Shown: piece after piece, positions 9,572 to 33,464 of the stretch | How positions within the stretch are numbered: position 1 is the stretch's first letter | How the letters are laid out: each line of letters opens with the position of its first letter | NCBI GenBank assembly: GCA_026417575.1 | Contig: JAOACZ010000086.1 | Coordinates: forward strand, 1 to 39,641 | From: a bacterium | GTDB lineage: Bacteria > Auribacterota > UBA3054 > JAPLST01 | Length of the DNA: 39,641 bases | Direction of reading: 5' to 3' | Notes under the pieces: generated by a model | What the model was told of the DNA's origin: nothing | Seen by the model: only the letters and a program-made list of their open reading frames with translations | Databases searched by the model: none | Position numbers and translations under genes: made by a program

Positions 9572-10328
9572 TCTCTTTACGTGATTCATGCGAGTAGATG
9601 ATAGCAGAGGATAAAGGAAAAGTCAAACCAATAGTTTTTTTCAAGCCAGGGACAGAAAGGACCAGTTGATGGTCTGTGGCGTGGATACTTACTTAGGCAG
9701 AGAAGATTGCTGAGCAGGGTCACGTGAAGGGCAAAGAATTATTTCCGATTCGACTAGCACGACAGCGCGGTTAGGCTGGGAATTGCTGCGTTTTTAACAG
9801 GGAATCACCTAGGCCCGGCGGATAGACGTTTGCAGGCCAAAAGTGCGCAGCAGGGAGGCAAGGGCGTACGCATTTGTTGCTCGGTTGCGGCGACACGCGG
9901 CGCCCCGCCCGGTGGCGGCCCGAACGAGGCTGGGGTGGTCCGAACGCTCAGCGCGCAATCGCGTACGGGGTACAGGGTGGGACTATGATGAGCACAGCTG
10001 TTACACAAGCTAGTGCGGAAGACGGCGACATCAGTCTCATGGACAAGGTGAGTATGGCATGGGTGAGAATCTGGCGTGCACCGGCTAGTCATGGTGAAAC
10101 ACTGAGCAGCCAGGCCAAGTCAGGTGTGGGAGATAGCTTAACGAGGCTCAGAAGAATTGTGATTAACGATTTGCAAATGTGGGAGGTGGTAAGGGCGGGC
10201 AAGTGTGGTGGACCGTGATCATGGAGACGCGTGGCCGTCGACACGATGGCATTTTTAGGATTGCGGGCCGATGTGGTTGACGTTGGATTGCGGACGCGGA
10301 GGCCGGTGAGCGGCCCGATAAATTCAAA

Positions 10329-10373
10329 GGACACGAAATGTCGTTTGCATGAGACAAAAATGGTTGCTTGGGA
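10329..10373 (+). repeat. Hairpin-doublet repeat, copy A
   Basis: Two units of about 23 bases. The first contains GACACGAAATGTC (arms GACA/TGTC) followed by GTTTGCAT; the second contains GACAAAAATGGTT followed by GCTTG. It is related to copies B (10431-10475) and C (25687-25731). The bases before copies A and B are also alike (AAATTCAAAGGACAC against AAATCCAACGACAC). Confidence 0.55.
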
Positions 10374-10430
10374 CGGTCGCTGGCGTCGGCCGCCGCTCAC
10401 TCGCGCGAACACGCTGCGTGCGAAATCCAA

Positions 10431-10475
10431 CGACACAAACCGCGATTTGCAAACAACGAAAATTGTTGCTTGAGC
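10431..10475 (+). repeat. Hairpin-doublet repeat, copy B
   Basis: The first unit, CGACACAAACCGCG then ATTTGCAAA, has lost its hairpin. The second, CAACGAAAATTGTTG then CTTGAG, keeps CAAC/GTTG arms around a GAAAA-type loop. It lies about 100 bases after copy A in the same orientation. Confidence 0.5.
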
Positions 10476-10519
10476 GCATGGGCACCAGGTGGCTGAATAC
10501 GGCGAAACATGTCAGCAGC

Positions 10520-10772
10520 GAGGCCGGTGCCCCTCGAGGATTGGTGGTTATGGCGTGCGGCGAAGCGGCGAGGCTCGATGTGGGAAGGCATGCAAGGAAG
10601 CGCTCACCGGGGCCGGTGCCCCTCCCTCAAATGGGGTTTGCGTGGAGCGTGCGCACCTGACTTGGTGCGGGATTGCGGGCACCGGGGCCGGTGACCCTCC
10701 ATAAGATGGGGTTCCGCGAATTGCAGGCGAGCGGGTGTGTGGGGGAAGTGGGCACGGAGGTCGGTGCCGTTG
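10520..10772. repeat. Four degenerate GGCCGGTG repeats, about 73-90 bp apart
   Basis: Repeats start near 10520, 10606, 10680 and 10750. The two best contain the palindrome CACCGGGGCCGGTG (10606-10619 and 10680-10693), followed by (C/A)CCCTCC, a short A-rich stretch and ATGGGGTT. The first (GAGGCCGGTGCCCCTC) and last (GCACGGAGGTCGGTGC) are weaker. A related core, GAGGCCGGTGAGCGGCCC, lies at 10299-10316. All can fold into GC-rich hairpins. They resemble decayed members of a REP-like interspersed family; that assignment is inference. Confidence 0.5.
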
Positions 10773-25602: not shown

Positions 25603-25950
25603 CTGCGCGGCTCTATGCAGCGCGCTACGCGTGTCGTCCGCCCTGGCAGTGGTGTACATGATGTGGCGCCTACACTGGCGTTCACTCGACAAAAATGGTC
25701 GTTTGCACACGACAGAAAATGTCGATTGATCTTCCTCCTCGCTTTATGTGGCTAAACGCGGTGTTTTGGCGGCTCCGGTGAGGTCTAACTCATGTCCAAG
25801 GGGCGTAAAGCCAGGATCGGTAGGCGCTTATGTGCAGTTACTTTGAATTCCCTGACGTACGATACCTCCTGCGGCGACAGGAAGTAACTCGCAGTGCCTT
25901 TGGTGAGAAGCCAGCAGTGCGACTGCCTGGGAACGTTATGAGGGACAAAT
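25603..25950. other. Intergenic region between two convergent genes
   Basis: About 350 bases with no coding frame. It holds hairpin-doublet repeat copy C and a 9-base stem with one mismatch, TACCTCCTG (25863-25871) and CAGGAAGTA (25878-25886). The stem may help end the GH20 transcript, although no T-tract follows it on the minus strand. No other structure was seen. Confidence 0.45.
25687..25731 (+). repeat. Hairpin-doublet repeat, copy C (best preserved)
   Basis: Two 23-base units back to back: CGACAAAAATGGTCG (arms CGAC/GTCG) plus TTTGCACA, then CGACAGAAAATGTCG (arms CGACA/TGTCG) plus ATTGATC. It is the same arrangement as copies A and B, 15 kb away. It lies 84 bases after the aldolase stop. 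Confidence 0.6.
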
Positions 25951-28586: not shown

Positions 28587-28625
28587 CTGAAGAGCCTTTC
28601 GAACACATAGGGCATGGAGGGCACA

Positions 28626-31600
28626 ATGAGACGCGGGGTACTACTCCTTGGTTGGATATTAGGCGGTGTGGGGGTGGCTTTGGGGGCGCCGTTGACCGCG
28701 GCAAATCAGCTATGGAACATTCGTACCAACTGGCCACGGTCGTACTATCCCTCGAAAACTGACTGGCGTTCGACAGTGTGTTTCCAGCTCATGACGGACC
28801 GGTGGTACGACGGTTGCCCGACCAATAACGAACTGGCGTACGGCGGGTACGACGTGACAGACCGGTCGCTCCGACATGGAGGCGATTTTGAAGGCATACG
28901 ACGGAAGGTGGAGTATCTGAAAGGCTTCGGCGTGGACATGATCTGGATATCGCCGATTTTTCAGAACAAGTACAATGAGTATCACGGGTATGGGCAGATT
29001 GATCGGACATTGCTGGACAAACGATGGGGGACCGTGATTGACATGCGCCGGATGACGGATGCGTTGCATGCGCGTGGGGTGTTGCTGTGTATTGACGAGG
29101 TGTCGAATCACGGGGGCAATCTGCTATATGGATCGAATCTTCTGGGAGACTGGCCGAAGTTCCATATGCACACGGATGAGTACACGCTGCACTATGCGAA
29201 CACGAATGAAGTGCACGCTGACTACGTCGTAAGCAACGTGTACAGCGCGACGGGGAATTACGGGTGTAATTTTGACAGCGGTGGTAATCCTGTGTGCGAC
29301 ACAGGGAGCGGGGGTTTTTTTGCCGACGATTTTCATCACAACGGGGAGTGCTCGTTTGATAGTTCGTGGCAGCAATGGTTGGGGGAGTTTCCGGGGGTAG
29401 GGTATGATGATTTTGCGACGGAGCGGGGGAGCTGCATCGCGCGGCACATTGACACGTTTACGAACTTGTTAGCGCACGATATTGACGCGATACGTGAGGA
29501 CACCCCGATGGAGATGCTGGTGTACTATTTTCAACAGTGGTGCCCGGCATCACGGGTCTTTGCCCGCGACGCTTTGGGCAAAAGCAACTTCTTTATGTTC
29601 GGCGAGTACTTCACATCGTTTGAGTATGCGAAGAAGATGACGGGGCGGAATGCGAACGGAGTTGATTTTTGTTTGAACGCGGGGGTGGATTATCGGAGCT
29701 ACTTTGATTTTTTTCGACCGGCGGTGTTTGAGCAGCAGAACGGCTACTTGGGCAAACTGAAGCAGACGTACGACGCCTACAGCTCGTATGACTTTACCGA
29801 CTGGCGGGACGGGGAACGCAAGTACACGATGTTGACGTTTTACAACAACCACGATCAACCACGCCTCTCTACGTGGCCCGACGGTGACGCGAAAACGCGG
29901 TTAGCCTCAGGCATAATCCTCACCTGGCCGGGAATCCCATGCTTGTATCACGGCGACGAACAAGGATTTAAGACAACGTTTGATGGGGACAAGAACGTGC
30001 GCGAAGACTACATGGTGAGCGCGGCGTACGTGGTGGATGGCGGCGTGACGAATCGGGCGCGTGGGGACAACTTTAACATGTGCCACGAGAACTACCGTTG
30101 GATAGCCAAGATCGCGAACTATCGACGTTTGTACCCGGCGTTGTGGCAGACAGACGAGCTGCGCGAGCGCTGGCATCAGAGCTACTATCAGAACGGCATC
30201 TACGCTTTTACGCGCATATGGGGTCATCCGACGAACTGGGTGCTGGTAGTGTTTAACACGTGGTCGGGCACGTTGAGCTATGGGCCGATGTACACTGAAT
30301 GGACCAACACCACGGTAGTGAACTTGATGAACACGAGCGAGACGGCGACCACGGACGGGAGCGGGCGTATGAGCGGGAGTTGCGTTGGTTACGGGCTGCA
30401 ACTGTGGGTACCGCAGAGCAATGTGCGCGCGTTAGCGCCGGTAGTTGAGTCGGTGAGTCCAGCTCACGACGCGTGGGTCGCCTCGCCGACCAGTATTCAG
30501 CTTACGTTTAGCAAGCCGATGGCGTGGGGGGCGTTAACGGGTGCCTTTCGCGTGAACGGGCAGCCAGTTGCAGCAAGCACACTCAGTCTGGGGAGCGGCA
30601 ACAAAGTGCTGACCTACACGCCATCGCCGGCATTGGGCGAAGGGATTCACTGGATTAGTATCAGCACGGCTGCATATGATACGACAGATAGCCTGCCGCT
30701 GTTCGCTGAATTTAGTACGCGGCTGCGGATTGGGAGTGTGACGAACCCAGTGATCAACTATGATTTGAAAACAGATCCGACGCTGATTAACGACGGTGGT
30801 TCTTACAGTGGCGCTGTGGTGACCTTGTATCACAAGGCGGTGGGAGCGGAGTGGTTCCGGTGCAAGAATGAGGGTGGCACGTGGAGCGCATGGATGCCAT
30901 ACACGAACGTGTCGAGCTGGACCTTGAGCGGGGTGGGGGGGACGCGGCGCGTGTGGGTGCAGTATTGGGCTGATGGCAGTGCGGCCTTTATCATCTATGA
31001 TGACGTGGCTGAGGCGGGGACACTTACGGCGAATTTCACTGGCACGCCACTCAGCGGGACGAATCCTTTGAGAGTGGTATTCACGGACTTGTCCACGACA
31101 GCCACGGTGCCGATTATCTCATGGCAGTGGGATTTTGGCGACGGGAACACATCGAATTTACGGCATCCGACCAACGTGTACCGACAGACAGGCATGTACA
31201 CTGTGCGTCTGATTGTGTCGGATGGGTACAACGTAGCGACCAACCGTAAGGAGCGCTACGTGGCAGTGTACGAGCCGCGGGCTGGTGACGATATTGAGAG
31301 CAGTGTGTACACGGATGATATGTTTGTGGGCAAGAACGGGGGATATGGGTTTGGGGCGTGGCAGGCATGTACGGTGACAGACGGGGGGACGTGGCGTGAG
31401 ATAGGAGGGAACAAAATTAGCGGGGCGCGATCCATGGGGACATGGGGGAATCCGGGTAACTATGCAATTCGGCGTAGTTTTGCTACCGCATTGACCAACG
31501 CGGCACGCTTTACGTTCAAGTGGCGGCCGCGAGCGACGCTGAATGCTGGGCATCGGATTGCCGTGATCTTGCGGAATGGGGATAGCAACCAGCATTGGGT

Positions 31601-33464
31601 GGGCCAACGGCTCGCCTTGTTCTTTGAAGATGTGAGCGGCACGGACATTTTGCGCTTTTACGATGGTGTCGATAAGAACACAAGTGTGAGCTACCAGTAC
31701 GGCCATGTGTACGCGGTCGAAATCATAGTTGACCCAACGAATAACACCTACGCATTTACGGTACGCGACGAAGACAGTCCCAGCAACGCCGTAAGCACAA
31801 ACGGGACGTTGATCACCAGCGGCGGTCTCGCAGGGACTCCGATCAATTCGTTTGCTTTGTACCTACAGCTTGGCAGCACAGATCACGACAGTATCTGGGA
31901 TGAGTTCTTAGTGACCACAGCGTCGAATACGTTGGTAGCCTCGTTTGTAGCGGTGCCGACGAATGGGCCGGCACCGTTGTCGGTGCAATTTACCGATGCA
32001 TCATTGGGCGGACCAACCGCGTGGGCGTGGGATGTTGACAACAACGGAAGCGTGGATGCGACGGTTCAGCATCCCGCGTGGACGTACCAGACGGCTGGCG
32101 TATACAGTGTGCGGCTGACTGTCAGCAACGGTGCGAATGCGGCCACGCTGGTGAAGCCGGGGTACATCGTTGTGAGCGCGCCGACGGCACCGGCGGCGCC
32201 GGCGTTTTATGCGCCGACGGCGTATGCGCACCGCGTGGATGTAGCATGGCAACGGAATGCGTCGAACGACCCAGTATTGATTGTGCGGAACACGAGCGGC
32301 GTGTTTGGGACACCAACGAACGGGACATGGTACTCAGCTGGGCAAAGCGCGCTGGGCGGCTACGTTGTTTTTGCTGGGGCAGGAACGTTTGTCCGCGATA
32401 CGAATCTGGCACCGCAGGTGCAGTACTACTACGTAGCCTGGTCAGTGAATGCGCAGACAAACTACTCCCTCAGTTACGCGGCGACGAATGCGACCACGCT
32501 GGCATTTGGGGCTCCGAGTAGTTTGCAAGCGGTGGCGCATTCGGGTGCGATTGACCTTACCTGGCAAAAGAACAGTGCGGGACACGGGGTGCTGATCGTG
32601 CGCTCGCTAAGCGGGGCGTTTTACGAACCGAGCGACTTTGCGACTTATGCGGTGGGACAAAATGCATTAGGGGGCGTTGTCGTGTACAAAGGTAGCGGGA
32701 CAAGCTTCCGCGACGATAACCTCAACTATGAGCAGACATATTACTACAAAGCATGGTCGTGCGACGACGAGTACGTGGGGCCGTACTATTCGAGTGGGAC
32801 GACTGTGAACAAGACAACAGGTGAAGGTCTGCCAGAGTACCTGGAGGTCACGTTTGATAACGCTGCGGAAGGAGAATTATTTGCGGTAGTAATGAGCGGT
32901 GGGGTGTGGTATGTCAGCGGGGGAAGCTACTGGTGGACGAACGGGGCGGCACCAGCTGCAGGAGCGGTTGTGTTGGTCGATGGGGTACGCAACCCTGTAT
33001 ACAGAGGTGTGGAGTTCTCGGCGCGTCTTAAGCCGTATGCGGCGAGCCCATTCCAGCGTGCCGGGTTGGTAGGGCATTACCGGGTCAGTGGTGCGGGTGT
33101 GCGGCAGTGTTACTTGCTGACGATTACGAACGCGACCAACGTGCGCTTGGCGATGACGCGATATGAAAATGGGGGGGAGGTGGAACTTGTGAGCACAGAT
33201 ACGGGGGCGGCGTTTGATACTAACGCTACGTACATTCTCACGTTGCGTTTTCCGGGAGACAACAGTTTTGTCGGCTCGCTGCAGACGAATGGTGGGATTG
33301 TGGTTGCTCAGGTACTTGGCAGTGATACAAATTATCCAACCGGTCTGGTGGGACTGTACGCTGGTTACGGCTCAGGTGCGGAGTTTTTATATTTTATGAC
33401 GCAAGCGCCAGAGCCGGTTTTTGGTTGGTTGGTCGTTATGCTGTGGGTGGTACGGCGGCGATGA
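28626..33464 (+). CDS. Giant multidomain secreted alpha-amylase (GH13) with PKD, FN3-like and PEP-CTERM domains
   Basis: 1612 residues; ATG 28626 has GGAGGG upstream (the ATG at 28614 overlaps that site). A signal peptide (about 1-20) precedes the GH13 barrel (about 40-590) with D-E-V-S-N-H, nucleophile Asp292 in I-R-E-D-T-P, acid Glu327 in F-G-E-Y-F and Asp410 in Y-N-N-H-D-Q. It is followed by a Big-like domain (about 600-695), PKD 1 (near W-D-F-G-D-G at 834-839), a LamG-like jellyroll (about 898-1093), PKD 2 (about 1095-1180) and two similar FN3-like repeats (about 1188-1292, 1293-1397). A beta-rich C-terminal domain comes next. The end A-P-E-P, hydrophobic stretch, R-R-R is a PEP-CTERM sorting tail. 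The enzyme should degrade alpha-glucan at the cell surface. Confidence 0.92.
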   Translation: MRRGVLLLGWILGGVGVALGAPLTAANQLWNIRTNWPRSYYPSKTDWRSTVCFQLMTDRWYDGCPTNNELAYGGYDVTDRSLRHGGDFEGIRRKVEYLKGFGVDMIWISPIFQNKYNEYHGYGQIDRTLLDKRWGTVIDMRRMTDALHARGVLLCIDEVSNHGGNLLYGSNLLGDWPKFHMHTDEYTLHYANTNEVHADYVVSNVYSATGNYGCNFDSGGNPVCDTGSGGFFADDFHHNGECSFDSSWQQWLGEFPGVGYDDFATERGSCIARHIDTFTNLLAHDIDAIREDTPMEMLVYYFQQWCPASRVFARDALGKSNFFMFGEYFTSFEYAKKMTGRNANGVDFCLNAGVDYRSYFDFFRPAVFEQQNGYLGKLKQTYDAYSSYDFTDWRDGERKYTMLTFYNNHDQPRLSTWPDGDAKTRLASGIILTWPGIPCLYHGDEQGFKTTFDGDKNVREDYMVSAAYVVDGGVTNRARGDNFNMCHENYRWIAKIANYRRLYPALWQTDELRERWHQSYYQNGIYAFTRIWGHPTNWVLVVFNTWSGTLSYGPMYTEWTNTTVVNLMNTSETATTDGSGRMSGSCVGYGLQLWVPQSNVRALAPVVESVSPAHDAWVASPTSIQLTFSKPMAWGALTGAFRVNGQPVAASTLSLGSGNKVLTYTPSPALGEGIHWISISTAAYDTTDSLPLFAEFSTRLRIGSVTNPVINYDLKTDPTLINDGGSYSGAVVTLYHKAVGAEWFRCKNEGGTWSAWMPYTNVSSWTLSGVGGTRRVWVQYWADGSAAFIIYDDVAEAGTLTANFTGTPLSGTNPLRVVFTDLSTTATVPIISWQWDFGDGNTSNLRHPTNVYRQTGMYTVRLIVSDGYNVATNRKERYVAVYEPRAGDDIESSVYTDDMFVGKNGGYGFGAWQACTVTDGGTWREIGGNKISGARSMGTWGNPGNYAIRRSFATALTNAARFTFKWRPRATLNAGHRIAVILRNGDSNQHWVGQRLALFFEDVSGTDILRFYDGVDKNTSVSYQYGHVYAVEIIVDPTNNTYAFTVRDEDSPSNAVSTNGTLITSGGLAGTPINSFALYLQLGSTDHDSIWDEFLVTTASNTLVASFVAVPTNGPAPLSVQFTDASLGGPTAWAWDVDNNGSVDATVQHPAWTYQTAGVYSVRLTVSNGANAATLVKPGYIVVSAPTAPAAPAFYAPTAYAHRVDVAWQRNASNDPVLIVRNTSGVFGTPTNGTWYSAGQSALGGYVVFAGAGTFVRDTNLAPQVQYYYVAWSVNAQTNYSLSYAATNATTLAFGAPSSLQAVAHSGAIDLTWQKNSAGHGVLIVRSLSGAFYEPSDFATYAVGQNALGGVVVYKGSGTSFRDDNLNYEQTYYYKAWSCDDEYVGPYYSSGTTVNKTTGEGLPEYLEVTFDNAAEGELFAVVMSGGVWYVSGGSYWWTNGAAPAAGAVVLVDGVRNPVYRGVEFSARLKPYAASPFQRAGLVGHYRVSGAGVRQCYLLTITNATNVRLAMTRYENGGEVELVSTDTGAAFDTNATYILTLRFPGDNSFVGSLQTNGGIVVAQVLGSDTNYPTGLVGLYAGYGSGAEFLYFMTQAPEPVFGWLVVMLWVVRRR

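Follow-up and report, generated by a model that had tools for sequence, protein, structure and literature searches.

A dispersed 48-bp intergenic repeat with four half-sites, a putative double-stranded binding site in an uncultured bacterial lineage

Three copies of a short repeat in the window (the whole 39,641-nucleotide stretch of DNA that was analysed) raise the question of whether such elements are kept for a fold or for the letters of the duplex. The initial annotation described each copy as two units of about 23 bases, took the differences between their stems as partly compensatory, and offered a small mobile element, a protein-binding repeat or an RNA processing site as explanations. 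All three copies are present on the forward strand: copy A at 10324-10371, copy B at 10426-10473 and copy C at 25682-25729, with profile E-values, rough because of a shortened calibration, of 5.1e-9, 1.4e-9 and 4.0e-12. They align with one another without gaps over 48 bp, as the description of two 23-bp units would have it. Copy C stands alone in a convergent gap, 80 bp past the end of one gene and 222 bp ahead of the end of the other. When the consensus of a single unit was searched with up to three mismatches, four matches were obtained in the window against 0.21 expected, a number reached by none of 100 shuffles.

Copies A, B and C are true members of a 48-bp repeat family, here called Q, of which the genome has about 100 copies. 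The further copies on which the idea of a repeat depended were thus found, with none in reversed controls: genome-wide, an 18-bp core gave 43 matches at up to three mismatches and its reversed pattern 0. A profile built from sequence only gave 102 matches at E<=1e-4 in the source genome (81% complete, 239 contigs); merging duplicates found on both strands and admitting weaker matches leads to about 113 distinct places. Fifty copies align over 48 columns, again gap-free, and yield the consensus TCAAACGACAMAAAATGTCGTTTGCAAACGACAAAAAATGTYGATTGA. Nearly all copies are intergenic. Within a 553-kb sample that was picked around Q copies and is hence Q-enriched, with genes called by a purpose-written hexamer method, 81 of 86 copies are located outside the called genes, with 7 of the 81 at contig edges, and none occupies a gap shorter than 200 bp. 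About half of the copies in the genome have a neighbouring Q within 300 bp, and 30 of the 34 pairs of neighbours no more than 400 bp apart share the same orientation, helical phasing between neighbours being marginal only (p 0.03 to 0.05).

Rather than being independent, copies A and B are the two Q elements of one composite. Read along the forward strand, this consists of a degenerate GC hairpin with a CCCGATAAAT lead-in (10290-10323, conserved in the composite alignment), the first Q, a 54-bp GC-rich linker containing a degenerate REP-like hairpin (GGTCGCTGGCGTCGGCCGCC; 10372-10425) and the second Q. About 24 other Q elements have a left flank homologous to this linker. A 103-bp model of the linker and second Q, R2, matches the genome nearly in full at about 47 places, among them 10371-10473 (E 1.8e-22), and the composite is therefore dispersed. 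Part of the Q family is dispersed in this way, within a BIME-like mosaic that also contains REP-like hairpins. The majority of Q copies, C among them, have unrelated flanks. Downstream on the same strand are three REP-like GC hairpins at 10511-10537, 10600-10626 and 10675-10701 (profile scores 25.1, 34.1 and 39.4). These belong to a second family, G, with the sequence GCGGGCACCGRGGCCGGTGCCCCTCCA and a GGAG tag on the other strand, which occupies 10511-10701 of the window and about 76 intergenic places in the 553-kb sample, with true compensatory changes in its stems.

The architecture of Q is fixed. Each element has four copies of a 9-bp half-site, TGTCGTTTG, in alternating orientation: a reverse complement, a 5-bp A-tract and a forward site, abutted without spacer to a second unit of the same order. 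Lone 23-bp units are no more frequent than the null and the doublet is therefore obligatory. Mismatches are very unevenly distributed over the half-site positions (chi2 362, df 35), and the four half-sites share a common profile (permutation p 0.0008) in which the same positions, G2, T8 and G9, recur as the strongest. As a control for selection bias, copies that had been retrieved with the inner 18 bp only were scored on their outer half-sites; here G2, T8 and G9 were mismatched in 33 of 252 cells compared with 116 of 336 for T1, T3, T6 and T7 (p 2e-9). The simplest explanation is that a DNA-binding protein would contact the four half-sites as two dimers or one tetramer, and the A-tract spacers inside the units would favour bending. 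The left and right ends of Q differ in a way common to the copies, with ATTGA at the right end and CAAAA in the left loop. This points to descent from one source element, so the conservation could in part result from copying instead of binding. The CG step in each half-site (positions 5-6, 18-19, 28-29 and 41-42 of Q, counted from zero) is mostly replaced by TG or CA and seldom by TA; the 553-kb sample shows no depletion of CpG (observed/expected ratio 1.13).

Q is restricted to one clade. It is found in five related genomes, which add two further genera and span two families of one order: G001, of the same family and another genus, and G002, G005, G007 and G009, four species of one genus in the second family. 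A profile search that covered 38 further genomes from this phylum found Q in none of them. In the relatives the four-site layout and the spacings are the same, with the half-site TGTCGATTG. Some of the weaker matches in relatives lie in genes and are due to chance; one apparent orthologous pair, in G007 and G009, proved to be a chance match inside a queE-like coding sequence. Five exact matches to the core in GTDB contigs, where the rest of the element is missing, also look like chance. No orthologous Q site conserved between species was found, which counts against a binding site.

According to the initial annotation, it is structure rather than sequence that is kept. On 50 to 84 copies the supposedly compensatory changes do not hold up, pairing and covariation being at or below the level of shuffles. 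The stems of 84 copies contain 949 Watson-Crick cells compared with 964±11 when partners are shuffled, an independent pair counter gave a covariation score of 0.153 against 0.167 for shuffled data, in 498 of 500 shuffles the number of two-sided pair changes is equal or higher, and RNAalifold predicted 0 pairs on the Q alignment. The GC hairpin in the same gaps, used as a positive control, has 461 Watson-Crick cells against 411±6 shuffled, so the test is able to see structure and in Q shows none; on the pair counts and RNAalifold, Q as a hairpin or RNA structure was rejected. Copy C does fold better than its shuffles (z -3.2), as would be expected of an RNA processing site, terminator or mRNA stabiliser, but copies A and B fold no better than theirs (z -0.5 and -0.2) and covariation is absent. 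G.T pairs in the 84 copies (154) are matched by the mirror-image A.C (152), so that neither strand is preferred, and an Rfam search with Q gave no match. An RNA element, the processing site suggested at the outset included, is therefore highly improbable. Folding as single-stranded DNA, with mobilisation by a RAYT, would make Q a REP/REPIN-type element. Q is indeed short, palindromic, extragenic, paired and of high copy number, its consensus folds into two hairpins and the source genome has one RAYT. However, Q is without the compensatory changes seen in the G hairpins of the same genome, and it has no GTAG tag: GTAG occurs in 7 of 85 copies taken with their flanks, fewer than when shuffled, and no conserved unpaired tag is present in the alignment. 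The single RAYT-type gene of the source genome (L106, G000:C13:94276-94605) lies between inverted copies of another repeat, a GGCCTAAACT...TTAACTTAA-like sequence that differs from both Q and the GC hairpins. Among the relatives, whose assemblies are incomplete, the most Q-rich (G002) has no detected RAYT, G004 has 7 RAYT and 0 Q, and 1 of 20 RAYT-family loci is near a Q. The proposed link to a REP-associated tyrosine transposase was accordingly rejected, RAYT and Q being decoupled, and an element of this type seems very unlikely.

As for the small mobile element of the initial annotation, the composite that holds copies A and B is dispersed, but neither a transposase nor a target duplication was found. 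The fuller form of this idea takes Q to be a miniature transposable element that has decayed and is now inert, its four half-sites being binding sites of a transposase, cut-and-paste or other. Its fixed length, the common ancestry of its ends, the dispersal of the composites and the terminal inverted repeats TCAA(A/T)CGACA...TGTYGATTGA would all fit. On the other hand, identical flanks of 2-9 bp are in no excess over shuffles, no autonomous transposon with Q ends was recognised in a search that covered the Y1 transposase family, searches of viral, phage and plasmid collections gave no match, and conservation so uneven across positions is unexpected of inert copies. We consider this explanation unlikely. 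Dyad-symmetric half-sites with contact positions in common would equally be expected of the operator of a transcription factor regulon. The placement of Q speaks against it: 19 of 73 copies are in convergent gaps, where there is no promoter, and 14 in divergent ones, with no excess over gap length, and the typical distance to a gene is 150 to 900 bp. Q does not avoid convergent gaps, which makes a role at promoters unlikely, and an operator, unsupported by any promoter-side bias, is distinctly doubtful. Nor was a convincing orthologous gene found flanking Q. In the comparison between genera, a Q adjoined 11 of the 19 matches; as these belong mostly to large, repetitive families of surface proteins that are rich in paralogues, they were not counted. 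Several of the gaps that carry Q are bordered by large proteins of the beta-helix, PKD or NHL repeat kind whose C-terminal tails are PEP-like (L180, L169, L184 and L175, with L091, L144 and L157 in relatives). In the window, a 1616-aa open reading frame at 28614-33464 resembles an alpha-amylase only over a short segment close to its start (residues ~86-169).

Among the three options offered initially, a protein-binding repeat fits best, given the position-specific conservation of the half-sites. We put at roughly 0.58 the probability that this dispersed intergenic repeat is read in double-stranded form, as a putative site for a dimeric or tetrameric protein, a judgement made from the sequence patterns described above. 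We infer that a protein binds, in one of these oligomeric states, and that its role would be chromosome-structural rather than that of an operator. The motifs of IHF, Fis, LexA, CRP, FNR, matS, parS and MetJ were tested on Q and gave no match, and HU/IHF family proteins are encoded in genomes both with and without Q. More tentatively, a lineage-specific chromosome-organising or insulator protein may bind as two dimers on the four half-sites at about 100 places, the site having been captured and spread by a REP-type mosaic. Short intergenic repeats are usually classed as REP hairpins. Here two families occupy the same gaps, one of which (G) keeps its fold by compensatory changes while the other (Q) keeps only the letters of its half-sites. 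The contrast is a clean internal control and suggests a conserved putative DNA-binding protein in an uncultured lineage; finding a protein that binds Q would make it possible to test whether dispersed repeats organise bacterial chromosomes.

The sites of matS, SlmA and Noc are single palindromes of 10-16 bp that also occur within genes. Q resembles them in its dyad symmetry and in having tens of copies across the chromosome, but it is an intergenic, 48-bp quadruple site in which the matS and parS motifs are absent. The bacterial MITEs Correia/NEMIS, ERIC and RUP are small non-coding dispersed repeats, some with a protein-binding site (PMC2229807). Q is likewise small, non-coding, dispersed and intergenic, though it is half their size or less and lacks TA ends, and for Q target duplications were not seen and a related transposon was not found. 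REP units are palindromic and 20-40 bp long, those of the CGTC type having stems of 8-9 and loops of 4-5, and head-tail dimers are rare among them (PMC3733652). Q shares with the GTAG- and CGTC-tagged REPs its paired, intergenic, palindromic units of 20-40 bp, and differs in the absence of an unpaired tag and of compensatory changes and in its obligatory same-orientation doublet with abutting units. The palindromes of REPs have been reported as preserved, and in BIME-1 the inter-REP sequence binds IHF, as summarised in PMC2817692, citing Boccard and Prentki (1993). The IHF consensus occurs in 1 of 85 Q copies, so that Q does not match the BIME/RIB linker in this respect. The mosaic that defines BIMEs, REP palindromes with conserved linkers, is found at the ~47 composite loci, which hold only part of the Q family. 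Like BIME-1/RIB, the composite combines covarying REP-like palindromes with a linker resembling a protein-binding site, and is extragenic and clustered; unlike them, Q carries four half-sites of its own, and most of its copies stand alone, without REP-like hairpins.
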